Shown here piece by piece: positions 24,797 to 37,028 of a stretch of DNA of 64,000 nt. Under the pieces are notes generated by a model. It worked only from the letters and a program-made list of their open reading frames with translations, was not told the origin of the DNA and did no database searches. The stretch's first letter is position 1. The number at the start of each line of letters is the position of its first letter. A program made the position numbers and the translations under genes. Source of the DNA: Bacteroidota bacterium (GTDB lineage: Bacteria > Bacteroidota > Bacteroidia > Bacteroidales > Paludibacteraceae); assembly GCA_021779195.1 (NCBI GenBank), contig JAJYBB010000002.1, positions 124,001 through 188,000 of the forward strand, in the 5' to 3' direction.

Positions 24797-25474
24797 TTAT
24801 CCTTTTAAACTTATTAAAGTCAACGATTTTTTATTTAGAATTTCAATTTCTTTTCCATTGATTTTAATAATGCCATCTTTATCAAATTCGGTCAATATAC
24901 GGCTAATACTTTCGCGACTGGTATCCACAAGATTAGCCAATTCAGCTTGTGAAATGGGCAATAAAAATTTATCGGACATAAAAATATTATTTGCTAACTC
25001 AAGCAATGCATCAGCCATATTTCCCCTGATCAATTTTTGTGTACGTTGTGCGCAGCGATGAAATGATTCCAATTCGTTATGACACAAATCTAAAATGATT
25101 TCATACGAAAATTGTTCATTTTCCCGTAATAAATTTCTGAATATATTCAGGTCGATAAAACAAACTTCCATATCCGAAACTGCTGTAACTGAATACTGAT
25201 TTATTTTATCACCAACAGTGGTAGGCAATCCCAAATAAGTAGGTGCTTTCACCAAACGCACGATTTGTTCATGATAAGGACCTGCCAAATGGATTTTTGC
25301 TAATCCTGTTCGCAGAAATACTACATTCGTTGAATACATGCCTTGTTTAATTATGGTATCTCCCTTTTTAAATTTCAAAACTAAATGGTTGGCTGATAAT
25401 TGATCAAATCCATTCTCGCTCAGCGTTCCAATATCTTTGGTATGGAAAGGGCAATTTCTACAATCGTTTTGCAT
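24797..25474 (-). CDS. Crp/Fnr-family transcription regulator
   Basis: 225 aa from the chosen start (MQNDCRNCPFH). Cyclic-nucleotide-binding-like beta-roll at about 25-120, dimer helix, then a winged HTH (about 160-215). The recognition helix reads SRESISRIL: the Arg-Glu-x-x-x-Arg spacing equals that of E. coli CRP (RETVGR), which reads TGTGA. Exactly such a palindrome lies in its own promoter. The N-terminal CxxC may bind metal or sense redox; a full FNR four-Cys set is not evident. A longer frame opens at 25552, but it starts upstream of the promoter, so 25474 is right. It probably represses itself and may control the divergent sulfur operon. Confidence 0.9.
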   Translation of the reverse strand: MQNDCRNCPFHTKDIGTLSENGFDQLSANHLVLKFKKGDTIIKQGMYSTNVVFLRTGLAKIHLAGPYHEQIVRLVKAPTYLGLPTTVGDKINQYSVTAVSDMEVCFIDLNIFRNLLRENEQFSYEIILDLCHNELESFHRCAQRTQKLIRGNMADALLELANNIFMSDKFLLPISQAELANLVDTSRESISRILTEFDKDGIIKINGKEIEILNKKSLTLISLKG

Positions 25475-25502: not shown

Positions 25503-25533
25503 CAAATATACACAATGTGATTTATATCACAAA
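25503..25533 (-). promoter_or_regulatory. Promoter of the Crp-type gene with overlapping Crp-type operator
   Basis: On the minus strand: TTTG (25533-25530), 19-base spacer, TATATTTG (25510-25503), an exact Bacteroidota promoter. The palindrome TGTGATTTATATCACA (25516-25531) fills the spacer and touches the -33 box, the position of a repressor site. Transcription would start near 25497, 23 bases before the ATG at 25474. Confidence 0.8.
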
Positions 25534-25585: not shown

Positions 25586-25593
25586 TACATTTG
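25586..25593 (+). promoter_or_regulatory. -7 element of the sulfur operon
   Basis: TACATTTG fits TAnnTTTG, with transcript start near 25600 and the first ATG at 25637. No TTTG is seen at -33, which would fit a promoter needing an activator. The Crp-type palindrome is centred about 76 bases upstream of the expected start. Confidence 0.5.
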
Positions 25594-25636: not shown

Positions 25637-26005
25637 ATGTCAAATCCCGAAAAACTGGTGATTATCAGTACAATTGGACCTGATAATCAAGAAAAAGCAA
25701 TTTTACCTTTTGTCATTGCAAATGGAGCTCTCACTGTTGATGCCGAAGTTGTTGTAATTTTACAATCAGCGGCAGTTTTATTGGCAAAAAAAGGAGTAGC
25801 AGAACATGTTAATTCCCCAGAATTAATGCCATTAAAAGATTTAATAGAAAGCTTTATTGAATTGGGGGGTAAACTTTTATTATGTTCACCCTGTATTAAA
25901 GAACGTAAAATAAAAACTGAAGATTTGATACCAAACTCAGTTATCATTGCTGCCGGTACAGTGGTCGATGAAGTGATGTCGGCTAAATCAGTAATTACTT
26001 ATTAA
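25637..26005 (+). CDS. DsrE-like sulfur-carrier family protein
   Basis: 122 aa, small alpha/beta fold of the DsrE/F type. Hydrophobic strands at 7-12 and 36-43 and the motif LLLCSPCIKERKI with Cys83 and Cys86 fit the persulfide-carrying cysteine position of DsrE relatives. These proteins pass sulfane sulfur between TusA-type carriers and redox enzymes in the cytoplasm. First gene of a seven-gene same-strand cluster; 12 bases separate it from the next gene. Which DsrE subgroup it belongs to cannot be fixed by eye. Confidence 0.8.
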   Translation: MSNPEKLVIISTIGPDNQEKAILPFVIANGALTVDAEVVVILQSAAVLLAKKGVAEHVNSPELMPLKDLIESFIELGGKLLLCSPCIKERKIKTEDLIPNSVIIAAGTVVDEVMSAKSVITY

Positions 26006-26017
26006 TTTAAATAAAAA

Positions 26018-26584
26018 ATGGAAAACTCAAATGAAGTTACAATCGAACAGCTAAAGAAGCAGTTAGATGTATTGCAAAAAAAAGTTGGAAAACTCGAGAA
26101 AAACCGCAAAGATCAATTGTCTATGGCTGTTGTGTCAGGTGATTTTGATAAAATTTTGGCTACAATGATTATTTCATTAGCTGCAGCAGCGATGGATACG
26201 CAAGTTAAATTGTTCTTTTCGTTCTGGTCTCTGTCTGCTCTTCGTGATCCGAAAAAAAGTCCTAAGGGAAAAGATTTTATTTCAAAAATGTTCGGCATGA
26301 TGTTGCCAAAAGGAAAAGATAAATTGTCACTTTCCAACATGAACATGGTAGGAATGGGTCCAATGATGATCAAAATGTTGATGAAAAAGAAAAATGTACT
26401 TTCGTTGGAAGAAATGTTCAAACAAGCTGGCGAATTAGGTATCGAAATCACCGTGTGCGAAATGTCGATGGATTTAATGGGCTTCAAAAAGGAAGAATTT
26501 ATAGATTATCCGCATTTACGATTTGCAGGTGCAGCTACATTTGTGGCTGATGCCGGCGAAAGTGCCATACAACTTTTTGTTTAA
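26018..26584 (+). CDS. DsrE2-like (DrsH-like) protein
   Basis: 188 aa. N-terminal short coiled coil (about 8-28, IEQLKKQLDVLQKKVGKLEKN in part), then the DsrE2 fold. Conserved ITVCEMSMDLMGF with Cys147 is the family cysteine, and the loop GMMLPKGKDKLSLSNMNMVG is typical of the family. DsrE2 proteins are often encoded beside TusA and Hdr-like genes and bind sulfane sulfur. The hydrophobic stretch at about 45-65 could contact the membrane. The next gene is 113 bases downstream. Confidence 0.85.
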   Translation: MENSNEVTIEQLKKQLDVLQKKVGKLEKNRKDQLSMAVVSGDFDKILATMIISLAAAAMDTQVKLFFSFWSLSALRDPKKSPKGKDFISKMFGMMLPKGKDKLSLSNMNMVGMGPMMIKMLMKKKNVLSLEEMFKQAGELGIEITVCEMSMDLMGFKKEEFIDYPHLRFAGAATFVADAGESAIQLFV

Positions 26585-26697
26585 AAGAACTTCAAAGTTC
26601 TTAGAATCGGAATTTATCACGTATCAAATATTAATTAAACTCAATTATAAACTTCCTTAATCCTCCTTGGATGATTTGAGGGCTATTTTTAAACATT

Positions 26698-26949
26698 ATG
26701 ACAAACGAAGAATTAAAAAATCTGAAATCGAATTTAGTAGTAGATGCACGTGGAACTGCTTGTCCCGGTCCTCTTTTGGCCGCAAAGAAAGCAATTGGTG
26801 ATATCGAATCAGGTGAAATTATGGAAATCCTTTCGGCTGACGAAGGTACAAAAAATGACATTCCCCGCTGGTGCGACAAAGTAGGTCACGAATACCTTGG
26901 TTTTGTTGACGAAGACAGTTTCAGTCGTTTATTTTTAATCAAAGAATAA
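26698..26949 (+). CDS. tusA: TusA-family sulfurtransferase
   Basis: 83 aa, full length. The CPGP motif (GTACPGPLLAAKKAI, active Cys22) is diagnostic for TusA-like carriers, which hold persulfide on that cysteine and pass it on in the cytoplasm. C-terminal SADEGTKNDIPRWCDKVGHEYLG follows the family pattern. In this cluster it probably feeds or drains the HdrA-type flavoproteins through the DsrE proteins, rather than acting in tRNA thiolation. Confidence 0.92.
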   Translation: MTNEELKNLKSNLVVDARGTACPGPLLAAKKAIGDIESGEIMEILSADEGTKNDIPRWCDKVGHEYLGFVDEDSFSRLFLIKE

Positions 26950-27058
26950 ATAAATCTGTCCTTATTTCAAAAATGGGAATTTGAGTTGCAATTGAATTCG
27001 TTTGAATGAATGCGACAAAGTTTCCCTTTTTTGAGTTAAGGATTTTTATTACATCAAC

Positions 27059-27478
27059 ATGGCAACAACTGCAACAACATCTCAGGAAACGAAATTACCC
27101 AAAATTTTAGTTTTCTCAACCGATAAGATATCCGATCCGGGAATAGATCAAGCCGGGTTAAGAAAAATTCATTATTCGCCGTCAGTGTATGTGATTAATC
27201 TGCCATGTTCATCGGGAGTAAAACCAAGATGGATTTTACACGCGTTGGAAAATGGTTTTGATGGTGTTTTTATAGCCGCCGATGGACACGAATGTTCGTA
27301 TAGTGCAAAATGTCCTGAACACACCAATACGATTATACAAACTGCACAGGAATTGATGAAAGAAAAAAACATTAATACGAAAAGAATCAGAATGGCAGCA
27401 GTGTGTTCAGTGTGTGCAGAACCTTTTGCAAGTCATATGGAAAACTTCAGTAAAATTTTAGCCGGAATTGAAGAATAA
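27059..27478 (+). CDS. MvhD/FlpD-type iron-sulfur electron carrier
   Basis: 139 aa. Matches the hydrogenase delta-subunit family: ILVFSTDKISDPGIDQAG, INLPCSSGVKPRWILHALENGFDGVFIAADGHE, with cysteines 50, 79, 85, 116 and 119 as likely [2Fe-2S] ligands. MvhD passes electrons to HdrA in methanogens; in QmoB the same domain is fused to the HdrA part. Here it is a separate gene just before two HdrA genes, so a split Qmo/Hdr arrangement is likely. The start at 27059 gives a low-complexity Thr-rich tail of about 12 residues. Confidence 0.85.
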   Translation: MATTATTSQETKLPKILVFSTDKISDPGIDQAGLRKIHYSPSVYVINLPCSSGVKPRWILHALENGFDGVFIAADGHECSYSAKCPEHTNTIIQTAQELMKEKNINTKRIRMAAVCSVCAEPFASHMENFSKILAGIEE

Positions 27479-27540
27479 AATCATTATGGTTCACGCACCA
27501 AGTGAAAATTTTGATTTTCGTTTAATAAAATAGAAAAACA

Positions 27541-30321
27541 ATGAATAAACACGATAAAGATTACGATGCTTTAGTCATAGGAGGCGGGATCGCTGGTCAG
27601 GAAGCTGCTTTGAGTTTAGCTGATATGGGGCATCAGGTTTTGTTGGTGGATAAGGGATTGTCCATCGGTGGAAAAATGATTCAATTAAGTAAAGTTTTCC
27701 CAACTCTGGACTGTGCCGCTTGTATTACCACCCCTAAAATGTCGGAAACCGCCCGTCATCCTAATATCACTTTAATGTTGAACAGCAATATTGCTGCAAT
27801 AAATAAAGAAGATGGCAATTTTAAAGTTGAAATTGAAAAGAAACCACGATATGTAATTGCTGAAGATTGTACCGGTTGTGCACAATGTGAAGCGGTTTGT
27901 CCTGAAGTTCGCAGTGATGATTACAATGCAAATCTGGCCGGACGAAAAGTGGCATATATTCCATTTAATCTTGCCAATCCCCGTATCGCCAATATCGATC
28001 GTCAGGGTCATTCAGCTCCTTGTATCAACGAATGTCCCGGAGGTGTAAAACCTTACGGATATATTTCGTTGGTTCGCAACGGTCAGTACGAAGAAGCCAT
28101 GAAGCTTCACCTCGAAGATATACCATTCCCGGGAAGTTTAGGGCGTGCTTGTTATGCTCCTTGTCAGAATGCTTGTACGCGTGCAAGCCTGGAAGGTTCG
28201 GTTGATATCCGGAAAACGAAGCGGTTTTTTGCCGACTGGTATTACGAAAAATATCCTGAAGCACCGGAAGTGGAAATTAAAAATAAAACAGATAAGAAAA
28301 TTGCTGTTATTGGTTCTGGTCCTGCCGGAATTACGGCGGCATATCATTTGGCGTTGAAAGGTCATAACGTAACTATTTTCGAAGCTGCACCGGCTGCTGG
28401 TGGAATGTTGCGTCTGGCATTACCCGAATATCGCGCACCTAAAAATGTGGTGGATCGTGATCTGAAAAACATTACCGTGCTTGGCGTTAAAATAGAGGTA
28501 AATAAAAAAATTACCGACTTGAAAGCACTGAAAAATCAGGGTTTTGATGCTGTGTTTGTTTCGGTCGGAACGCACGATGCCGTAACTTCAAAAACCGAAG
28601 GTTCGGATTTGAAAGGAATCGTTGATTGCCTCGAATTCCTTCGCGAAGCCAATATTGGCAAAAAAGAAGATTTAACCGGAAAACGGGTAATGGTTATCGG
28701 TGGCGGAAATACGGCGATTGATGCTGCACGTACTTCGTTGCGACTTGGTGCCGAAAAAGTGACGGTAGTTTATCGTCGCAGCCGTGAAGAAATGCCTTGC
28801 TTTGCTCCCGAAATTCACGAAGCGGAAGAAGAAGGAGTTGAAATCATGATTCTTCGTAATCCGGTAAAATACCTTGGCGAAAATGGCAAAATCAAACAAG
28901 TGCAACTGGAAAAAATGCAATTGGGCGAAAAGGATGCCAGCGGTCGTCGTAGTCCTGAACCGGTTAAAGGTTCGGAATACCTTGAAAATGTGGATTTTGT
29001 AATTGAAGCTATTGGATTGAAACCTTCCACAAAACCATTTGTTGGGCAGGTAGAACTGAATAAAAACGGAACCATTGTAGCCGATAAAAAAACACTCCAA
29101 ACCTCCGTAGAATATATTTTTGCAGGTGGCGATACTGTTACCGGAGCAACAACGTTGATTGAAGCTGCAGGACAGGGAAAGAAAGCCGCTTTCTATATGG
29201 ATAAATACCTTCGGGGTTTAAATATGCTCGATTTTGAAGATGGCGATAAATTGCCTGCAATCGAAAAAACATCCATTATCAACAATTATCAGGGTGGGAT
29301 AAAACCCGTGGTTCCAAGTGCCATGATGCCTCTGGCTCAACGTGCCCGCAGTTGGGAAGAAGTAGAACAAACTTACACGGAAGCTGAAGTTAAAGCCAAT
29401 ACCGAACGTTGTTTGGATTGCAGCAATTGCCGCGAATGTCATCAATGTGTTACGGCTTGTCCTTCAAATGCCATTGATTTTAAACAAAAAACCCAACTTA
29501 TCAACGCATCTGTAAAATCTGTGGTGGTTAGTACTGGATATGAATTGTTTAAACCGGACGGAAAGCCTAATTACGGGTATAAAAAATTCCCCAACGTGAT
29601 CGATTCCATGCAAATGGATCGGTTAATTGCACCAACCCGTCCGTATAACAATGTTCTGCGTCCGGGAGATGGAAAAACTCCGGATAATATTGCGTATGTT
29701 CTTTGTACAGGTTCCCGCGATTCTGCCATTGAAAATTCTGGTTGTGGTGCCGATTGTTCCAACAACCCGATTTGTTCGCAAATTTGCTGTATGTATTCCA
29801 TCAAACAGGCTCAATTGTTAATGGGAGCTTTGCCAATGGCTGATATCACCATTTATTACATGGATATCCGCGCATTTGGTAAAGGCTACGAAGAATTTTT
29901 CGAAGAATCAAGATCAATGGGAGTGAAGTTTGTAAAAGGAAAGGTTGCCAAAATTCGTGAAAACGAAAACGGAAGCGGTGATTTGATTTTACGTTATGAA
30001 GACACTATCAAAGGGGTAGTAAAAGAAGCCAAACACGATGTGGTTGTACTTTCGGTAGGAGTTGTTCCCAATAAACATGTACCCGAAATGTTTAAAAATA
30101 AAATTTTAGAACTCGATGCTTACAACTTTGTAAAACAAACCGATGAATTAATCAGTCCTACATTAACCAGTATCGAAGGTGTATTTGTTGCCGGAGCTGC
30201 TTCTGGTCCAAAAGATATTCCAGATTCAATTTTATCAGCCGGTTGTGCCGCTACAGAAGTGGATGCATATTTGAATAGAGAGAGTAATTCAACTAAAAGT
30301 TTCACTCTTGCTAAAAATTAA
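27541..30321 (+). CDS. HdrA-like flavoprotein with inserted GltD-type NAD(P)H module
   Basis: 926 aa, cytoplasmic. Residues 1-150 are HdrA-like: FAD motif GGGIAG (14-19), FPTLDCAAC (Cys58, Cys61) with TPKM and HPNI after it, and a [4Fe-4S] set Cys110/113/116/120. Residues about 150-640 resemble the glutamate-synthase beta subunit/NfnB: Cys161, Cys165, GRACYAPCQNACTR (204-212), a second FAD motif GSGPAG (258-263), and NAD(P)-binding GGGNTAIDAA with YRRSREEMP. A ferredoxin-like Cys set follows (624-640). Residues 650-926 return to HdrA (CTGSRD, CSQICCMYSIKQAQ, YYMDIRAFG). It could exchange electrons between NAD(P)H and an Hdr/Qmo-type complex. Six bases separate it from the next gene. Confidence 0.88.
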   Translation: MNKHDKDYDALVIGGGIAGQEAALSLADMGHQVLLVDKGLSIGGKMIQLSKVFPTLDCAACITTPKMSETARHPNITLMLNSNIAAINKEDGNFKVEIEKKPRYVIAEDCTGCAQCEAVCPEVRSDDYNANLAGRKVAYIPFNLANPRIANIDRQGHSAPCINECPGGVKPYGYISLVRNGQYEEAMKLHLEDIPFPGSLGRACYAPCQNACTRASLEGSVDIRKTKRFFADWYYEKYPEAPEVEIKNKTDKKIAVIGSGPAGITAAYHLALKGHNVTIFEAAPAAGGMLRLALPEYRAPKNVVDRDLKNITVLGVKIEVNKKITDLKALKNQGFDAVFVSVGTHDAVTSKTEGSDLKGIVDCLEFLREANIGKKEDLTGKRVMVIGGGNTAIDAARTSLRLGAEKVTVVYRRSREEMPCFAPEIHEAEEEGVEIMILRNPVKYLGENGKIKQVQLEKMQLGEKDASGRRSPEPVKGSEYLENVDFVIEAIGLKPSTKPFVGQVELNKNGTIVADKKTLQTSVEYIFAGGDTVTGATTLIEAAGQGKKAAFYMDKYLRGLNMLDFEDGDKLPAIEKTSIINNYQGGIKPVVPSAMMPLAQRARSWEEVEQTYTEAEVKANTERCLDCSNCRECHQCVTACPSNAIDFKQKTQLINASVKSVVVSTGYELFKPDGKPNYGYKKFPNVIDSMQMDRLIAPTRPYNNVLRPGDGKTPDNIAYVLCTGSRDSAIENSGCGADCSNNPICSQICCMYSIKQAQLLMGALPMADITIYYMDIRAFGKGYEEFFEESRSMGVKFVKGKVAKIRENENGSGDLILRYEDTIKGVVKEAKHDVVVLSVGVVPNKHVPEMFKNKILELDAYNFVKQTDELISPTLTSIEGVFVAGAASGPKDIPDSILSAGCAATEVDAYLNRESNSTKSFTLAKN

Positions 30322-30327
30322 GAAATC

Positions 30328-32529
30328 ATGAAAGAAAGAATAGGTGTATATATTTGTCACTGCGGCGGAAATATTTCCGATTACGTAGATGTGGAAGAAT
30401 TGAGCAAAATGTTTCACAAAGAAGAAAACGTGGTCATTGCAAAAGATGTCATGTTTGCTTGTGCCGATTCAAATCAGAAAGATATGGTGCAGGATATTCA
30501 GGAAAATAAACTGGATGCCATTGTGGTATGTTCTTGTTCGCCAAAACTTCACCTGCACACTTTCCGTAGTGTTGCAGCACGTGCCGGATTAAATCCATCC
30601 AATTATGTTCAGGTAAATATTCGCGAACAATGTTCATGGCCTCACAGCGATCGACCACGTGAAGCAACGGTGAAAGCAGCCGGATTAATTCGAGCCGGTA
30701 TCAATCGGGTTTCGTTTTCCGAATCGTTGGAAGATATCCAGTTGGAAGTGAAAAAATCGGTAATGGTTTTGGGTGCCGGTGTTGCCGGTATGAAAGCCGC
30801 CATCGACCTGGCAAAATCCGGTAATGAAGTGTTTTTAGTAGAAAAGGATTTCTTCGTGGGTGGACGTATTGCCCAAAAAGATAAGCTTTTTGTAACCGGA
30901 CAAAGCGGAAAACAAATTGTAGCTTCGTTGTACGATGAAATTAAAAAACAATCCAATATTACCATTTTCACGGGCACTTCTATCGAAAAAGTTTCAGGCA
31001 GTTTAGGTAATTTTCATATTGATTTGAAAGTTAAACCTCGTTATATCAATGGAAAAGCCGACAAACAAGCCGTGAAACGGGCGATGGAGGAATGTCCGGT
31101 AGAAGTACCCGATGCATTTAATCTGGGACTTACCAAGCGGAAAGCCATTTATAAAAATTATCCGGAAGCTTTACCCGATGTTCCAGTTGTTGAAGCTGAA
31201 TTATTGAAAGATCAACCTGATTTTACAGCAAAATTCGCTTCAACACTCAATTTGAATGAACAGGAGGAAACCATCTCTTTAATCGTTGGTTCGGTATTGG
31301 TAACTACCGGCTATGAAAATTATCAACCTAAAGAAGGTGAATTTGGATACAAAACTATTGACAACGTAGTAACTTTACCTGAATTAAACCGCTTGATGGA
31401 ATTAAATCCTCAAAAGCTGGTTTACAACGGAAAGGAAATCAAAAGTATCGCATTTATTTATTGTGTGGGAAGCCGCCAGAAGAAAGGCGAAAACAAATAT
31501 TGTTCGCGTCAATGCTGTACTTCAACTATTTATACTTCACTTCAGTTGAAGGAGAAATACAAAGAAATGCAGACATATCACTTGTACCGCGATATTCGTG
31601 CTTACGGAAAACAGGAAGTGTTGTACACGCAATCGGCAAAACAAGGTGATTTGTATTTTAAATACGAAGATAAAGAAAAGGATTTCCCTGTAGTAGAAAA
31701 AGTTGGAAAAAACACTATTGTTAAAGTAAAAGACTCGCTTACTGCCCGTAAAGAGTTGGAAATTGAAGCCGACCTGGTGGTATTGGTTACCGGAATGGTG
31801 GCTCGCGAAGATTCAACCCATATTTCCGAATTATTTAAAATTCCAATTGGACGTGACCGTTTCTTTAACGAAATCCACCCCAAGCTGAAACCTGTTGAAA
31901 CTGTAATCAAAGGTGTATATATTGGTGGAACTTGCCAGGGACCAAAAAATGTGACTGAATCGGTTCAATCATCATTGGCTGGTGCTTCAAAAATAACAGC
32001 TTTATTAAAAAGCGGAACAGTTGCCGTCGACCCGATTATTGCACGGGTTGATACCGATGCTTGCACCTGGTGCGGTAAATGTGCTGATGTTTGTGATTAC
32101 GGTGCATTGAAAGTCGTGGAAGTGGACGGAAAAAAAGTTGCTTCAGTTAATAAAGCTGTTTGTACCGGTTGCGGAATATGCGCTCCTGTTTGTCCTGAAA
32201 ATGCCATTGAAATAGCTCAATATACCGATAAAGGAATTGAATCAATGATTGATGGATTTATGTTGGATGTTCAAATTCAGGAAAAAGAAGTAAATGCTGA
32301 TGAAGTTCAGGATGAAAATGCTGTTGGAATGAAAGAATACCCACAAGTTTGGAAAGAAATTCTTGCCGGAATGACCGATGAGAAAAATACGATTCCACAG
32401 ATAATCGAAAATTCAAAACTTAAGGGAGAACTCGTTACGTATCATCTAATGACCATGAACAAATACGGTGTAGTTGTTCCGGCTGGTATGGATCAAAAAG
32501 AAGAATATTTTTATTATAAAAAGAAATAA
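30328..32529 (+). CDS. Second HdrA-like flavoprotein (QmoB-like)
   Basis: 733 aa. Complete HdrA plan: N-terminal CxC and GGNI segment (Cys10, Cys12), Cys45, Cys68/70, FAD motif GAGVAG (149-154), HdrA body (YCVGSRQ, CSRQCCTSTIYTS, YRDIRAYGK) and two C-terminal [4Fe-4S] sets (about 578-625, CTWCGKCADVC and CTGCGICAPVCP). Unlike ordinary HdrA it lacks the FPTxDCxxC motif after the FAD site. The internal ferredoxin is also degraded: KPRYINGKADKQAVKRAME replaces the CxxCxxC part and only Cys256 before PVEVP remains. It likely pairs with the preceding HdrA and the QmoC-like subunit as an electron-transfer module. Confidence 0.87.
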   Translation: MKERIGVYICHCGGNISDYVDVEELSKMFHKEENVVIAKDVMFACADSNQKDMVQDIQENKLDAIVVCSCSPKLHLHTFRSVAARAGLNPSNYVQVNIREQCSWPHSDRPREATVKAAGLIRAGINRVSFSESLEDIQLEVKKSVMVLGAGVAGMKAAIDLAKSGNEVFLVEKDFFVGGRIAQKDKLFVTGQSGKQIVASLYDEIKKQSNITIFTGTSIEKVSGSLGNFHIDLKVKPRYINGKADKQAVKRAMEECPVEVPDAFNLGLTKRKAIYKNYPEALPDVPVVEAELLKDQPDFTAKFASTLNLNEQEETISLIVGSVLVTTGYENYQPKEGEFGYKTIDNVVTLPELNRLMELNPQKLVYNGKEIKSIAFIYCVGSRQKKGENKYCSRQCCTSTIYTSLQLKEKYKEMQTYHLYRDIRAYGKQEVLYTQSAKQGDLYFKYEDKEKDFPVVEKVGKNTIVKVKDSLTARKELEIEADLVVLVTGMVAREDSTHISELFKIPIGRDRFFNEIHPKLKPVETVIKGVYIGGTCQGPKNVTESVQSSLAGASKITALLKSGTVAVDPIIARVDTDACTWCGKCADVCDYGALKVVEVDGKKVASVNKAVCTGCGICAPVCPENAIEIAQYTDKGIESMIDGFMLDVQIQEKEVNADEVQDENAVGMKEYPQVWKEILAGMTDEKNTIPQIIENSKLKGELVTYHLMTMNKYGVVVPAGMDQKEEYFYYKKK

Positions 32530-32612
32530 ACCGATTAAATCCCCAAAGTGGGACTTTGAATGGTAAAAACATTTTGTTATGAAAAAAATAAATATCAATA
32601 TTAATTTAAATT

Positions 32613-32637
32613 CCTCCTCATCGGGGAGGTTAGGAGG
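32613..32637 (+). promoter_or_regulatory. Strong ribosome-binding site with upstream anti-SD hexamer
   Basis: AGGAGG (32632-32637) lies 6 bases before the ATG at 32644, unusual because Bacteroidota rarely use Shine-Dalgarno sites. CCTCCT (32613-32618) is its exact complement; the intervening GGGGAGG (32623-32629) offers an alternative partner. Two mutually exclusive hairpins are possible, which could tune translation of the membrane subunit. Confidence 0.5.
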
Positions 32638-32643
32638 GGCAAT

Positions 32644-33690
32644 ATGTCAAAAGTAAATCCGAAATTTGCAACTGAATTAGCAAAATACGGCTCAGACGAT
32701 TTCAATGCGTGTTTCAATTGCGGAAATTGCACGGCCACTTGCTCGCTCTCGACAACAGACAGTTCATTTCCCCGCGAAATGATTCGTTACACTACGCTGG
32801 GACTAGAAGATGAAATCACGGCATCACTCAAACCATGGGAATGTTATTATTGTGGTGAGTGTAGTACTGAATGTCCCCGTCAGGCTAATCCCGGTGAATT
32901 AATGATGTCATTGCGTCGTTGGCTGACGGCTAAATATGACTGGACAGGGCTTTCGGGATTGATGTACAAATCGTTATCCTTGAGCTTAACTGCATTTATC
33001 CTTGCTTTTGCAGGAGTAATGGCATTTGTATTTTCGATTCATTTCGATATGGAAAGAATGATGCATGTCGGTCATTTATTTGAAATGATTGCCATCGGTT
33101 CGGTGGCTGTAGTAATTCTGTTGCCCAATATCGTCCGGATGTGGTATTTCACCATTCTGAAACCTAAAACGAAAGTGTCCTTTAAAAAATATGTAACAAG
33201 CATTACCGATTTGATTGTTCACATGTTTACCCAAAAACGTGCTCTGGGATGCGATGATAATCAATTCCGCTGGTTCGAACATTTTGTGTTGGTTTTGGCT
33301 TATTTATCGTTGCTTTTCACCACTGTTTTTCTCGATTGGTTTAATGCTACTAACCTGTTTATTATCATTTTAGGTTATGTTGAAAGTGCAATAATTTTTG
33401 TTGTAACCGTTGATTTTGTTTCAAACCGTGTGAAAAAGAATAAGGCAGTAAGCAAAAACTCTCAGCCTTCCGACTGGTTTTTTGTTATTTGGCTGTTGCT
33501 TATGGGTTTAACGGCATTTTTAACCCGAATGTTTATTGACTTTGGTTGGCTCGAATCAAATAAATGGTTATTTATCGTTCATCTTACTGTTTTAGTTCAG
33601 TGGGCACTGATTATTGTTCCGTTTGGTAAATGGACACATTTCCTCTATCGTTCGTTTGCCATGTATTTTGCCAAGCTGAAGGAGAGCTAA
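32644..33690 (+). CDS. QmoC-like subunit: HdrC ferredoxin fused to membrane cytochrome-type domain
   Basis: 348 aa. Two [4Fe-4S] motifs of HdrC type come first: CFNCGNCTATC (Cys23, 26, 29, 33) and CYYCGECSTECP (Cys67, 70, 73, 77). About six transmembrane helices follow (near 104, 140, 205, 225, 270 and 300), with His residues (WFEHFVLVLAY, FIVHLTVLVQWAL, WTHFLYRS) that may ligate heme b, as in QmoC and HdrE/NarI-like proteins. It would exchange electrons between the soluble HdrA-type partners and the quinone pool. Last gene of the sulfur cluster; a strong terminator follows. Confidence 0.88.
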   Translation: MSKVNPKFATELAKYGSDDFNACFNCGNCTATCSLSTTDSSFPREMIRYTTLGLEDEITASLKPWECYYCGECSTECPRQANPGELMMSLRRWLTAKYDWTGLSGLMYKSLSLSLTAFILAFAGVMAFVFSIHFDMERMMHVGHLFEMIAIGSVAVVILLPNIVRMWYFTILKPKTKVSFKKYVTSITDLIVHMFTQKRALGCDDNQFRWFEHFVLVLAYLSLLFTTVFLDWFNATNLFIIILGYVESAIIFVVTVDFVSNRVKKNKAVSKNSQPSDWFFVIWLLLMGLTAFLTRMFIDFGWLESNKWLFIVHLTVLVQWALIIVPFGKWTHFLYRSFAMYFAKLKES

Positions 33691-33710
33691 TTTTAATGCA
33701 AATGATGTTT

Positions 33711-33744
33711 AAAACCGATTGATGTTTTTCAATCGGTTTTTTTG
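33711..33744 (+). terminator. Terminator of the sulfur/Hdr-Qmo operon
   Basis: AAAACCGATTG (33711-33721) and CAATCGGTTTT (33730-33740) form an 11-base stem with an 8-base loop and a run of T. It lies 20 bases past the stop of the QmoC-like gene. Confidence 0.85.
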
Positions 33745-33863
33745 TTCACTATTTGATCTTGAAACGGCTTAAAATAAATATTTATACAGTATATAAACAT
33801 TTTTTTGCTGTGTTTCGTTTATAGTATTATTCAGTTTCGTATCTTTGTCCAAAATACATAACA

Positions 33864-34778
33864 ATGAATTTACATGTAATTGACGAAACATCTACACTTC
33901 GGGCGGTAGTTTTGGGGCAACCCGGTTCAATAGGAGATATTCCTACCATTGATCAAACTTTTGATGCTAAATCTTATGAATCTGTGCTGAATGGCACTTA
34001 TCCAACTGAGGAATCTATTTATAAGGAAATGAGTGTGTTTGAGAAAGTTTTGCTCAAGTACAATGTGCAGGTTTTTCGACCATGGACACTCGAGAATTGC
34101 AATCAGGTATTTGCTCGTGATGTGGCTTTTGTGATCGACGATAAAATTATTAATTCAAACATTATACCTGATCGCGAGGATGAAAAAGAAGCTTATGAAG
34201 TAGTGTACGATCAGATTGCATATAGCAAGATTTTTAACTTACCTGAAAAAGCACATGTCGAAGGTGGTGATGTTGTACTTTTCGGCGACAAAGTTTTTGT
34301 GGGATTATATTCAAAGCCAGATTATCCACAACTCAAAACCGCTCGGACCAATCTATATGCCTTTCATTTTTTAAAAGAACTTTTTCCGCAGAAAACATTT
34401 ATTCCCATTGAACTAAAAAAAAATGATTTTGATCCTCGAAAAGGGGTTTTGCATTTAGATTGTGCGTTTATGCCAATTGGAACAGACAAAGCGATTATTT
34501 ATAAAGATGGGTTTTCTCATTATAAAAACTATCAATTGATTGTGGATATATTTGGCGAAAACAATCTCTTTGAAATTTCTCAGGAAGAAATGTACTTCAT
34601 GACCTCGAATATATTCTCAATTTCGCCTGATATTGTTGTTTCCGAACAAAATTTTAAAAGATTAAATCATCATCTTGAACAAGAGTGGGGATTCACCGTA
34701 GAGCGGATTCCTTATTTTGAGATTTCCAAAATGGGAGGTTTGCTTCGTTGTTCAACACTCCCATTGATAAGAAATTAG
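33864..34778 (+). CDS. Amidinotransferase/arginine-deiminase superfamily hydrolase
   Basis: 304 aa, five-bladed propeller fold of the guanidino-group-modifying superfamily. Catalytic pattern visible: FARDVAFVID (Asp region), HVEGGDVVLFG (Glu-Gly-Gly-Asp), VLHLDCAFMPI (His) and LLRCSTLPL (nucleophile Cys near 296). Members hydrolyse arginine, dimethylarginine or agmatine. It is followed 51 bases later by ctlX and then rocD, so a step releasing citrulline or ornithine from arginine is likely. A -7 element TATCTTTG (33840-33847) precedes it. The exact substrate is open. Confidence 0.82.
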   Translation: MNLHVIDETSTLRAVVLGQPGSIGDIPTIDQTFDAKSYESVLNGTYPTEESIYKEMSVFEKVLLKYNVQVFRPWTLENCNQVFARDVAFVIDDKIINSNIIPDREDEKEAYEVVYDQIAYSKIFNLPEKAHVEGGDVVLFGDKVFVGLYSKPDYPQLKTARTNLYAFHFLKELFPQKTFIPIELKKNDFDPRKGVLHLDCAFMPIGTDKAIIYKDGFSHYKNYQLIVDIFGENNLFEISQEEMYFMTSNIFSISPDIVVSEQNFKRLNHHLEQEWGFTVERIPYFEISKMGGLLRCSTLPLIRN

Positions 34779-34829
34779 CTACAATACATTTATCAAGAAT
34801 TATTATTTTTAAGTAAATTATAAAATATT

Positions 34830-35753
34830 ATGTTCAAACAAACCACCCATATCATTTTTATGATCGAACCGGCAGCTTTTGGTTTTAATGCTGAAACGGC
34901 TGAAAATAATTTTTTTCAGCATAATGTAAGTGTTAAATCAACTGAAATTCAAGATCGGGCATTAACAGAATTTAATCATTTAATTGAAAACTTACGGGCA
35001 AATGATATTCGTGTTATTGTTGTGAAAGACACCTTGTATCCACACACTCCAGATGCTATTTTTCCGAACAATTGGATTTCATTTCATTCAGGAGGGCAGG
35101 CGGTTTTGTTTCCCATGTTTGCAAAAAACAGACGAATGGAGCGTAGAAATGAAATTTTAGAATACTTAAATGCACAAGGATGTTCTATAAAGAATGTTGA
35201 TGATTTTACATTTTGGGAAGAGCAAAATCGATTTTTGGAAGGTACCGGCAGTATGGTGTTGGATAGAGTGAATCGAGTTGCCTATGCCGCTATATCGCCA
35301 CGTACCAATCAAACGGTTTTTTTGGAATTTTGTAAACTTTTTGAGTTTAAACCGGTGTATTTTATAGCAAATCAAATCCTTATAAATGAAAGACAGCCAG
35401 TATATCATACCAATATAATGTTAAGCGTAGCCAACGAGTATGCCGTAATTTGTTCGGAATGTATAGATGACATTTTAAACCGTGAACAAGTACTTTATAA
35501 CCTCAAACAATCCGGCAAAGAAATAATCGAAATTACAGAATTACAAATGAATCATTTTGCAGGAAATATCTTACAAGTTGAAAATAACGCAGGTAAACAA
35601 TTTCTAGTAATGTCGCAAAGTGCTTACGATTCCTTGACTGTGTCTCAATTAAGTAAATTGAAAGCCTATAACGATTTTATTGTAACTGCAATTCCTACGA
35701 TTGAACAGGTTGGAGGCGGAAGCGTCAGATGTATGATGACAGAAATTTTTTGA
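34830..35753 (+). CDS. ctlX: CtlX-type citrulline utilization hydrolase
   Basis: 307 aa, second member of the same superfamily and matching the CtlX subgroup: TPDAIFPNNWISFH, LFPMFAKNRRMERR, FLEGTGSMVLDR, VYHTNIMLSV (His) and VGGGSVRCMMTEIF (Cys near 302). CtlX is linked to citrulline use, likely forming ornithine. Its place between an arginine-deiminase-like gene and ornithine aminotransferase supports that. The start ATG at 34830 gives the expected N-terminus. Confidence 0.88.
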   Translation: MFKQTTHIIFMIEPAAFGFNAETAENNFFQHNVSVKSTEIQDRALTEFNHLIENLRANDIRVIVVKDTLYPHTPDAIFPNNWISFHSGGQAVLFPMFAKNRRMERRNEILEYLNAQGCSIKNVDDFTFWEEQNRFLEGTGSMVLDRVNRVAYAAISPRTNQTVFLEFCKLFEFKPVYFIANQILINERQPVYHTNIMLSVANEYAVICSECIDDILNREQVLYNLKQSGKEIIEITELQMNHFAGNILQVENNAGKQFLVMSQSAYDSLTVSQLSKLKAYNDFIVTAIPTIEQVGGGSVRCMMTEIF

Positions 35754-35789
35754 TAAAATATTCGATGTGTACTATTTAAAATCAACAAT

Positions 35790-37028
35790 ATGAATGAATT
35801 GAAATTATCTTCCAAAGATTTAATGGAACTCGAAAATAATTTTGGGGCACATAATTATCATTCTATTCCGGTAGTTCTCGAAAAAGGAGATGGCGTTTTA
35901 GTATATGATATAGAAGGAAAGCAGTATTTTGATTTTCTGTCGGCATATTCTGCTGTAAACCAAGGACATTCTAATCCTAAAATCATTCAAACCCTGATAG
36001 ATCAAGCCCGCAAATTGACGTTGACTTCACGTGCATTTTACAATAGCCAACTGGGTTTATTTGATAAATTTGTTACTGAATATTTTGGGTACGATAAAAT
36101 TCTGCCAATGAACACCGGAGCCGAAGCTGTTGAAACTGCTTTAAAACTTTGCCGCAAATGGGCGTATGAGAAAAAAGGTTTGCCCGATAATTCAGCTCAA
36201 ATCGTGGTTTGTGAAAATAACTTTCATGGTCGAACCACCACGATTATTTCATTTTCTGTAGATCCTGAAGCCTATGGTCATTTTGGTCCATTTACACCAG
36301 GATTTATTATTATTCCTTATAACGATGCCGATGCTCTTGAAAAAGTTTTAATTGAAACTCCCAATATTGCAGGGTTTTTGGTTGAACCAATTCAGGGTGA
36401 AGCCGGGGCATTTGTTCCTCACGATGGGTATCTCCGTAGTTGCTACAATATTTGTCAGCAACATAATGTATTATTTATTGCTGATGAGGTTCAGACCGGA
36501 ATAGCCCGAACCGGAAAAATGCTGGCTTGCGATTATGAATCAGTTCATCCTGATATTTTGATTCTTGGTAAAGCTTTATCAGGTGGTGTATATCCTGTAT
36601 CGGCGGTATTATCGAGTCAATCCATCATGGATGTTTTTCAGCCCGGTCAACATGGATCTACTTTTGGCGGAAATCCGTTGGCTGCAGCTGTGGCTATTTC
36701 CGCATTGGAAGTGGTTCGAGATGAAAATTTAGCGGCAAATGCTTTCCGAATGGGAAATATTTTTAGGGCAGAAATGAAAATTATCTGCGAAACATCTAAA
36801 ATTGCATCGTTTGTTCGAGGTAAAGGCTTATTGAATGCATTGATTGTCAATGATAAAGGATATGAAAATTTGGCTTGGGAAGTATGTCTGAAACTTGCTG
36901 AAAATGGATTGTTGGCAAAACCAACTCATTCTAACATAATTCGATTTGCACCGCCCTTAATTATAACCGAAACTCAATTGAACGAATGTATATTGATCAT
37001 CAAAAAAACTATTAAATCTTTTGAATAA
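35790..37028 (+). CDS. rocD: Ornithine-oxo-acid aminotransferase
   Basis: 412 aa, class-III PLP aminotransferase. Visible: NTGAEAVETALKLCRKW (PLP phosphate loop), ENNFHGRTT, VEPIQGEAG, DEVQTGIARTG (Asp that holds the PLP ring nitrogen), ILGKALSGG (Schiff-base Lys) and HGSTFGGNPLAAAVA. It moves the delta-amino group of ornithine to 2-oxoglutarate, giving glutamate semialdehyde. With the two upstream hydrolases it forms an arginine/citrulline-to-glutamate route; the next enzyme (P5C dehydrogenase) is not in the window. Confidence 0.95.
   Translation: MNELKLSSKDLMELENNFGAHNYHSIPVVLEKGDGVLVYDIEGKQYFDFLSAYSAVNQGHSNPKIIQTLIDQARKLTLTSRAFYNSQLGLFDKFVTEYFGYDKILPMNTGAEAVETALKLCRKWAYEKKGLPDNSAQIVVCENNFHGRTTTIISFSVDPEAYGHFGPFTPGFIIIPYNDADALEKVLIETPNIAGFLVEPIQGEAGAFVPHDGYLRSCYNICQQHNVLFIADEVQTGIARTGKMLACDYESVHPDILILGKALSGGVYPVSAVLSSQSIMDVFQPGQHGSTFGGNPLAAAVAISALEVVRDENLAANAFRMGNIFRAEMKIICETSKIASFVRGKGLLNALIVNDKGYENLAWEVCLKLAENGLLAKPTHSNIIRFAPPLIITETQLNECILIIKKTIKSFE

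Follow-up and report, generated by a model that had tools for sequence, protein, structure and literature searches.

The window, that is, the whole stretch of 64,000 nucleotides analyzed here, is part of contig 28 of a 3.12-Mb draft genome, 96% complete, of a Paludibacteraceae bacterium. An operon of seven genes between positions 25,637 and 33,690 encodes sulfur carriers together with subunits of Hdr/Qmo-type electron transfer. We read its products as an NAD(P)H- and menaquinone-coupled, membrane-anchored complex that acts on carrier-bound sulfane sulfur, and we put the probability of this reading at about 0.5. In this genome, the complex would probably work in the reductive direction. The operon suggests that electrons pass to or from bound sulfur by a route not yet described. 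Its predicted products include the carriers, the redox subunits, an NAD(P)H module, and a QmoC-type protein, as listed below.

25637..26005, + strand, DsrE-like sulfur-transfer protein with a CxxC motif (C83, C86), an accessory gene (PF02635)
26018..26584, + strand, DsrE2-like sulfur carrier with Cys147 (PF13686, 153 bits; NF047629, 69.9 bits, cut-off 210)
26698..26949, + strand, TusA sulfur carrier with a CPGP motif and Cys22 (PF01206, 71.3 bits; NF001423 equivalog, 45.4 bits, cut-off 78)
27059..27478, + strand, MvhD-like subunit with five Cys (50, 79, 85, 116, and 119; PF02662, 95.8 bits)
27541..30321, + strand, QmoA/HdrA-like protein of 926 residues with an inserted NAD(P)H module (HdrL architecture)
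28000..29409, + strand, the inserted NAD(P)H flavoprotein module, residues ~154-623 of that protein, PRK12771/GltD/NfnB/DsrL-like (NF009410, 494 bits, cut-off 516)
30328..32529, + strand, second HdrA-like (QmoB-like) subunit of 733 residues (NF040770, 593 bits, cut-off 1100)
32275..32529, + strand, C-terminal, winged-helix-like extension of QmoB, matching a separate small open reading frame of some relatives
32644..33690, + strand, QmoC-like membrane subunit with two 4Fe-4S motifs and His213/313/332 (NF038018, 148.2 bits, cut-off 300)

All seven open reading frames lie on the + strand with the ends given in an earlier note on this DNA, and Pfam and NCBIfam scans agree with the identities proposed there: DsrE, DsrE2-like, TusA, FlpD/MvhD, two HdrA-type proteins, and one protein of QmoC type. 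Both HdrA-like proteins are indeed of the HdrA type, but the first has an NAD(P)H module fused into it, which had been missed. The curated equivalog cut-offs were not reached by QmoC (148/300 bits), DsrE2 (70/210), and TusA (45/78). Because these scores lie well below the cut-offs, we regard the three proteins as family members, not as the described orthologues. The closest relatives, with QmoA sequences up to 91% identical, are titled Paludibacter.

Judged by its alignments, the first HdrA-like protein is a QmoA into which an NAD(P)H flavoprotein module of ~465 residues (GltD/NfnB/DsrL type) is inserted. Seven relatives with the same operon (L045-L051; loci are denoted by L numbers) have a QmoA of only 431-476 residues. 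The six of these that were aligned are without window residues ~154-623; the boundary is sharp and lies within the two-cluster ferredoxin part. The inserted stretch matches GltD/NfnB-type modules in proteins of known structure titled formate dehydrogenase, molybdopterin oxidoreductase, and NfnA, and it narrowly misses the cut-off of NCBIfam subfamily PRK12771 (NF009410). An AlphaFold model of QmoA has a mean pLDDT of 81.9. A protein of 1490 residues in L186 aligns with residues 1-917 of the window QmoA at 40%, holds the module at the same place, and continues into a second HdrA; therefore, the fusion has the HdrL architecture.

An HdrA tree had been suggested as a check on the operon, and we built one for QmoA (425 columns) from the window sequence, 32 hand-picked fused relatives, seven unfused ones, and a few references, rooted on four AprAB-linked QmoA. 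The TusA-linked QmoA form a clade of their own with a support of 100, and canonical QmoA and HdrL fall outside it. The four AprAB-linked sequences form a separate group, and the window QmoA does not belong to the canonical clade. The first branch of the TusA-linked clade is L183, an unfused QmoA from another Bacteroidota group, and the second is an Aminicenantes-Acidobacteria-Actinomycetota group. Because the unfused L045-L051 are nested among fused QmoA with a support of 96, the module was probably lost in that line, and a recent insertion within Bacteroidales is rejected. A single loss is also rejected, because the earliest branch, L183, lacks the module as well; its unfused state would need a second loss or separate gains of the module. 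Among the matches listed, fused QmoA occurs in 22 and the unfused kind in 27 of 149 relatives (own genome included). The genus of the window has 19 fused and 17 unfused of 48, with no genome holding both among the matches listed, and the family of Petrimonas sp. IBARAKI has 5 fused (one partial) and 17 unfused of 81, again among the matches listed. The unfused counts rest on the match pattern, with seven unfused operons (L045-L051) opened.

The MvhD subunit also differs from the canonical protein. Its five Cys are invariant (76/76) in a pattern unlike that of 5odc_D: the first CxxC and GGC are lost, CSS and ECSY are kept, and C85 and CSVC are gained. In an 18-row comparison, this five-Cys set was found in 14 of 15 TusA-linked rows and in none of the three others (one hydrogenase-linked and two AprAB-linked). 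The exception is the distant MvhD of L183, which keeps only a CTVC motif; the TusA of L183 is confirmed and is 52% identical. The predicted fold is retained (pLDDT 80; Foldseek match to 5odh_D with a TM score of 0.78). The Cys set thus appears to follow the link to TusA, which counts for a complex acting on carrier-bound sulfur, and we infer that the subunit was rebuilt for persulfide or TusA.

The carriers keep their candidate sulfur-binding residues: Cys22 of TusA is invariant in 76/76 sequences, Cys147 of DsrE2 in 64/64 (sequences shorter than 150 residues dropped), and C83/C86 of DsrE in 7/7. The Fe-S motifs of both HdrA-like subunits are invariant, as are His213/313/332 and the Fe-S motifs of QmoC (63/63, sequences shorter than 300 residues dropped). 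These invariant carrier Cys and Fe-S motifs are consistent with, and count for, the proposed complex.

Related loci were found at 296 places in genome contigs, of which the best 80 were kept, and the counts therefore favor close kin. TusA, MvhD, QmoA, and QmoB lie on one strand in unbroken order in all 56 of the 80 loci that have enough flank. That carrier and electron-transfer genes are kept together argues for a sulfur-linked complex. Of the seven-gene order proposed earlier as a search target, this core thus recurs, but the DsrE gene is accessory and the C subunit varies. A BLAST match to DsrE lies near the cluster in only 6/80 loci, and L118 has a different DsrE-family gene nearby. A DsrE2 match stands 5' of TusA in at least 48 of the 56 loci, once with DsrE between; it stands 3' of QmoC in L117 and L121, and several other loci have a different DsrE2-like family of ~140 residues, assigned by resemblance, at the DsrE2 place. 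A viral link for DsrE2 was also considered and dropped; one scan of viral contigs gave no relative. TusA also serves in E. coli as a biosynthetic carrier, and the operon could accordingly be an HdrL-type NAD(P)H:quinone complex whose sulfur carriers act only in tRNA or cofactor thiolation. The adjacency of TusA in 56/56 evaluable loci and the MvhD signature tied to TusA make this very improbable.

According to the record titles, the cluster occurs in Paludibacter, Petrimonas, Proteiniphilum, Mariniphaga, Marinifilum, and Draconibacterium. By the same titles, a few Aminicenantes, Acidobacteria, Actinomycetota, Spirochaetes, and Deltaproteobacteria records, all of them metagenome-assembled genomes (MAGs), also carry it, and its description as a system of a Bacteroidota was therefore too narrow. 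The tree places L108, L113, and L114 among the Bacteroidales, and these three may have been misbinned or transferred.

In 53 of the 56 loci, QmoB is followed by a full-length QmoC; in L098, the QmoC frames are broken by frameshifts. Two other loci (L111 and L130) and the short-flank L109 have instead a ferredoxin of HdrC size (100-107 residues) followed by a protein of 315-330 residues with one CCG domain over the cut-off, at these positions:

L109, 6647-7909, HdrC-size ferredoxin and one-CCG protein in the QmoC slot
L111, 13953-15244, the same pair
L130, 14086-15412, the same pair

Because of these three loci, membrane coupling appears to be usual but not universal, and a QmoC in every member is ruled out. 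A CCG protein in this slot would fit thiol/disulfide chemistry. Two classes of QmoC, ~70-80% and ~30-40% identical to that of the window, swap in otherwise conserved operons (L041, L070, and L086-L104 versus L032-L040). The QmoC cut-off of NF038018, below which the window protein falls, was passed in 13/395 Bacteroidota genomes. Between QmoB and QmoC, some relatives have a small winged-helix-like protein as a separate open reading frame (L117:13415-13648; L045:5685-5885), and that of L045 matches PF01022 with 31.2 bits (cut-off 22). The window stretch 32275-32529 gave weak matches only in the same family scan, and the protein is apparently fused to QmoB there. Its size and fold class presumably recall DsrD.

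The operon is flanked by regulatory features on both sides.

24797..25474, - strand, divergent regulator of the CRP/FNR family (PF13545, PF00027)
25515..25532, no strand assigned, palindromic operator ATGTGATTTATATCACAA, matching 11/12 consensus positions
25586..25593, + strand, -7 element TACATTTG (TAnnTTTG), 62 nucleotides from the operator center
33711..33740, + strand, intrinsic terminator with a 12-pair stem and a T tail (mean 0.1 in shuffles)

The open reading frame of the regulator was called to 25552, and its likely start is the methionine of MQNDC, as in relatives. A divergent CRP/FNR gene lies beside the cluster in 39/80 loci. Among 40 regulator sequences, nearly all (0.97) have an N-terminal CxxC and all (1.00) have a third Cys, with a spacing that we take to resemble three of the four FNR ligands. 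A TGTGA-N6-TCACA palindrome was found in all 39 loci with the divergent regulator, scoring 9-12 of 12 versus 7-9 in shuffled sequences (one mononucleotide shuffle per locus, the loci being related). The motif TAnnTTTG, presumably the Bacteroidota-type -7 element, stands exactly 62 nucleotides from the palindrome center in 21/40 sequences (window included) and at no other spacing in the stretch scanned. The fixed positions of this element, in the 34 readable of the 39 operator loci, are T in 33, A in 23, T in 31, T in 34, T in 30, and G in 27. Sigma-70 matches at 33600-33900 were attributed to chance (2 found versus a mean of 1.4 shuffled). The palindrome, the TACATTTG box, and the terminator stem bear out the view that the operon is one unit with its own promoter and terminator; the regulator itself had been overlooked. 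This regulator probably senses sulfane sulfur, redox state, or nitric oxide and activates from the fixed upstream site. Directly downstream of the operon (33864-37028) are two arginine-deiminase-like genes and an ornithine-aminotransferase-like gene; the first matches PF02274 with 42.5 bits, and the rest were read by eye.

A dedicated regulator with conserved Cys and a fixed-distance operator would also suit a defense against sulfide/polysulfide or nitrosative stress. In that case, triggering of the redox-sensing CRP/FNR protein would call on the complex to hold the persulfide pool in a reduced state, outside energy metabolism. The operator may resemble the HcpR site. For this purpose, a complex of several subunits, one of them in the membrane, would seem expensive, and no recurrent stress gene was recognized by eye among the neighbor families common to at least 6 loci. 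We consider a role in defense improbable.

The draft genome of the window was scanned for other sulfur enzymes. There was no NIR_SIR match and thus no DsrAB, no AprA over the cut-off (best match 22 bits versus 641.75), no DsrC, no SQR type III at E 1e-30, no molybdopterin oxidoreductase, and no HdrB-like protein; the only CCG gene encodes an LdhH/LutA-like protein of 240 residues. The absence of AprAB, DsrAB, and HdrB noted for the cluster thus extends, for AprA, NIR_SIR, and HdrB-like proteins, to the whole draft genome, which agrees with the view that the operon is neither a standard Qmo nor a standard Dsr system. Membership in the standard Qmo, Dsr, and sHdr systems is rejected on the grounds that AprA, DsrAB, DsrC, and HdrB were not found here and that QmoC and QmoA lie outside the canonical set. 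That other sulfur routes were not found in the genome counts for the complex as we read it.

The NIR_SIR and AprA scans covered 37 cluster genomes, namely this one and the genomes of 36 of the 80 loci, hand-chosen for spread; most are draft MAGs, and absences in them are soft. No DsrAB pair was found among them. A NIR_SIR protein occurs in two, each as one frame of ~570 residues with two matches, which we read as the assimilatory type. AprA passed the cut-off in four, none of which has a NIR_SIR match. Two Bacteroidales MAGs from Zodletone-named bins without NIR_SIR (L177:8347-15286 and L178:8323-15339) carry a full AprBA-QmoABC operon apart from the cluster, and L179 and L180 have a contig with AprB-like, AprA, and QmoA or its start (AprB and the operon limits by eye). 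Therefore, the cluster is not the Qmo of L177 and L178. Such an arrangement would fit sulfur or thiosulfate disproportionation in AprAB-bearing relatives, where the cluster would supply the reducing arm and AprAB-QmoABC the oxidizing one. With AprA in only 4/37 genomes and none in that of the window, this explanation seems quite improbable for the operon as such. In relatives with AprAB, oxidation or disproportionation is more likely.

The same complex might instead work oxidatively, turning the sulfane sulfur of the carriers into sulfite (or sulfide into persulfide) with menaquinone and NAD(P)+ as acceptors, as a DsrAB-free counterpart of rDsr/sHdr. We regard this as unlikely. In its favor, the inserted module shares 37% identity with a DsrL-like protein (L182) that passes the PRK12771 cut-off and whose gene adjoins those of DsrC and a DsrK-like protein; the AprA-bearing cluster genomes have no NIR_SIR match, and a few loci have SQR-type genes close to the cluster. 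In known systems, oxidative pathways are supplied by TusA and DsrE-type carriers, as far as the available text of PMC13293266 describes them. However, the own genome is without a detected HdrB-like protein, AprA, SQR III, or molybdopterin enzyme, and a fermenting host would need another acceptor. To our knowledge, no sulfite-forming site has been reported in HdrA, MvhD, or QmoC.

DsrC and SQR III were rejected as obligate partners: DsrC occurs in 14/149 relatives, 4/49 cluster-positive versus 10/100 others, and SQR III in 6/49 versus 8/100, with no clear association. In L073 (17487-19631) and L076 (3704-5805), SQR type III (selenoprotein-subtype family), DsrC/TusE-like, and DsrE2-like genes form a module near the cluster, and DsrC and SQR share a contig in 9 of the 14 DsrC-bearing relatives. 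YeeE/YedE adjoins the cluster in 6/89 distinct loci (100 scanned, 11 repeats); the own genome has one YeeE, on another contig. In one clade (L091:2482-7553; L099:2643-7533), directly 5' of the cluster, are genes for a cysteine desulfurase-like protein, a two-Cys DsrC (C-terminal), HmcE/DsrM-like and TmcB/DsrK-like proteins, and a second cysteine desulfurase; these two genomes gave no NIR_SIR match. The YeeE/YedE neighbors and the cysteine desulfurase-like and DsrC genes of this clade count for a complex that handles carrier-bound sulfur.

The genus Paludibacter ferments. Three points lead us to favor reduction in this genome: this habit, the failure to find an SQR III, AprA, or molybdopterin enzyme, and the reduction of elemental sulfur (S0) by Petrimonas. 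The type species of Petrimonas reduces S0 to H2S according to the available part of PMC9695182, and the cluster itself is seen in Petrimonas sp. IBARAKI (L118). We consider reduction about twice as likely as oxidation in this genome. Sulfane sulfur would be loaded as a cysteine persulfide on Cys147 of DsrE2 and Cys22 of TusA, and TusA would dock on the rebuilt MvhD. The complex would consist of MvhD, QmoA with its built-in NAD(P)H dehydrogenase, QmoB, and the QmoC membrane anchor. With electrons from NAD(P)H, and with menaquinol/menaquinone exchanged via QmoC, the sulfur would be released as sulfide, which would give a fermenter an electron sink that reoxidizes NAD(P)H. The complex may run the opposite way in relatives with AprAB. 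The sequence itself shows the carriers, the redox subunits, the NAD(P)H module, and QmoC; which way the complex runs, where the sulfur chemistry takes place, what MvhD does, and whether electrons bifurcate are inferences.

Several points weigh against this scheme. Where persulfide chemistry would take place is unproven, and the own genome yielded no HdrB, the subunit that usually reduces disulfides. AprA in 4/37 cluster genomes, two of them with a separate AprBA-QmoABC, fits oxidation or disproportionation. Neither DsrC nor SQR III is clearly associated with the cluster, the family does not depend on NAD(P)H (27/149 relatives match the unfused pattern), and quinone coupling is not universal, since L109, L111, and L130 have HdrC-size and CCG proteins in place of QmoC. 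We know of no report of sulfur reduction by a cultured Paludibacter. Quinone-coupled persulfide chemistry linked to NAD(P)H had been the reading of the earlier note; the NAD(P)H link and the membrane subunit are found in the window, but the direction is unproven and neither coupling is universal.

A broader proposal is more tentative, and we regard it as possible rather than probable. The operon may represent a separate type of DsrAB-free dissimilatory sulfur machine of several phyla. In it, the rebuilt MvhD would accept persulfide directly from TusA, and a complex related to HdrL would link it to NAD(P)H. A C subunit that can be exchanged, either membrane QmoC or HdrC with a CCG protein, would provide the link to menaquinone or some other partner, and flavin-based electron bifurcation may be involved. 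Loss of the module in at least one line would then have left two versions in one genus.

The gene set had been thought undescribed, and we likewise found no description of this operon in the open PMC literature, to which the search was confined. Nor was a description found of the genes by which fermenting Bacteroidales such as Petrimonas use S0, for which the operon is a defined and testable candidate. In metagenomes, annotation might take its parts for qmo, hdr, or sulfur-relay genes and credit them to sulfate reducers or sulfur oxidizers. The five-Cys signature of MvhD, the inserted NAD(P)H module, and the operator spacing are markers by which it can be recognized there.

Among known systems, QmoABC of sulfate reducers and Chlorobi, which accompanies AprAB, shares the HdrA-like A and B subunits and a C subunit that joins HdrC to a membrane part. 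In contrast to it, the window QmoA lies outside the canonical clade, QmoC scores 148 against 300 bits, MvhD is a separate gene, and no AprA in the genome passes the cut-off; two relatives carry both systems complete. In sHdr-LbpA sulfur oxidation, TusA and DsrE-type carriers are encoded with Hdr-like proteins, as in the window, whereas here HdrB was not found in the genome and QmoC is present. A QmoAB-HdrBC arrangement is described for some sulfate reducers in the available text of PMC10504309. The HdrC-size and CCG proteins in the QmoC slot of L109, L111, and L130 resemble it, but a membrane QmoC is retained in the window and in most relatives, and the sulfur carriers and altered MvhD are further differences. 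According to the same available text, type II Qmo occurs in genomes without Apr and Dsr, is functionally unexplained, and has a role that needs study (PMC10504309). The operon bears on this question as another HdrA-like Qmo without Apr/Dsr, a likeness drawn from the description in that text; sulfur carriers are present here, while that text mentions none for type II. The YTD cluster, or DsrEFH type II-TusA-YeeE, likewise combines TusA with a DsrE-type carrier, and YeeE adjoins the operon in the six relatives noted above (PMC12998232, PMC13293266). As far as the available parts of these sources go, it has no Hdr/Qmo subunits, and the YeeE of the window genome is not adjacent.

HdrL of Desulfobacterium autotrophicum is an HdrA/glutamate-synthase fusion with an NADH site and MvhD beside it (available text of PMC2702500). 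A row of QmoC-like, 1490-residue HdrL-type, canonical-pattern MvhD, and NiFe-hydrogenase-like genes is seen in L186, which belongs to another Bacteroidota genome (8682-17414; hydrogenase by eye). Like HdrL, the window HdrA has MvhD beside it and holds a GltD-type NAD(P)H module inserted at the same point, but its HdrA halves are split into two proteins (926 and 733 residues) and are joined by QmoC, the sulfur carriers, and a different MvhD.

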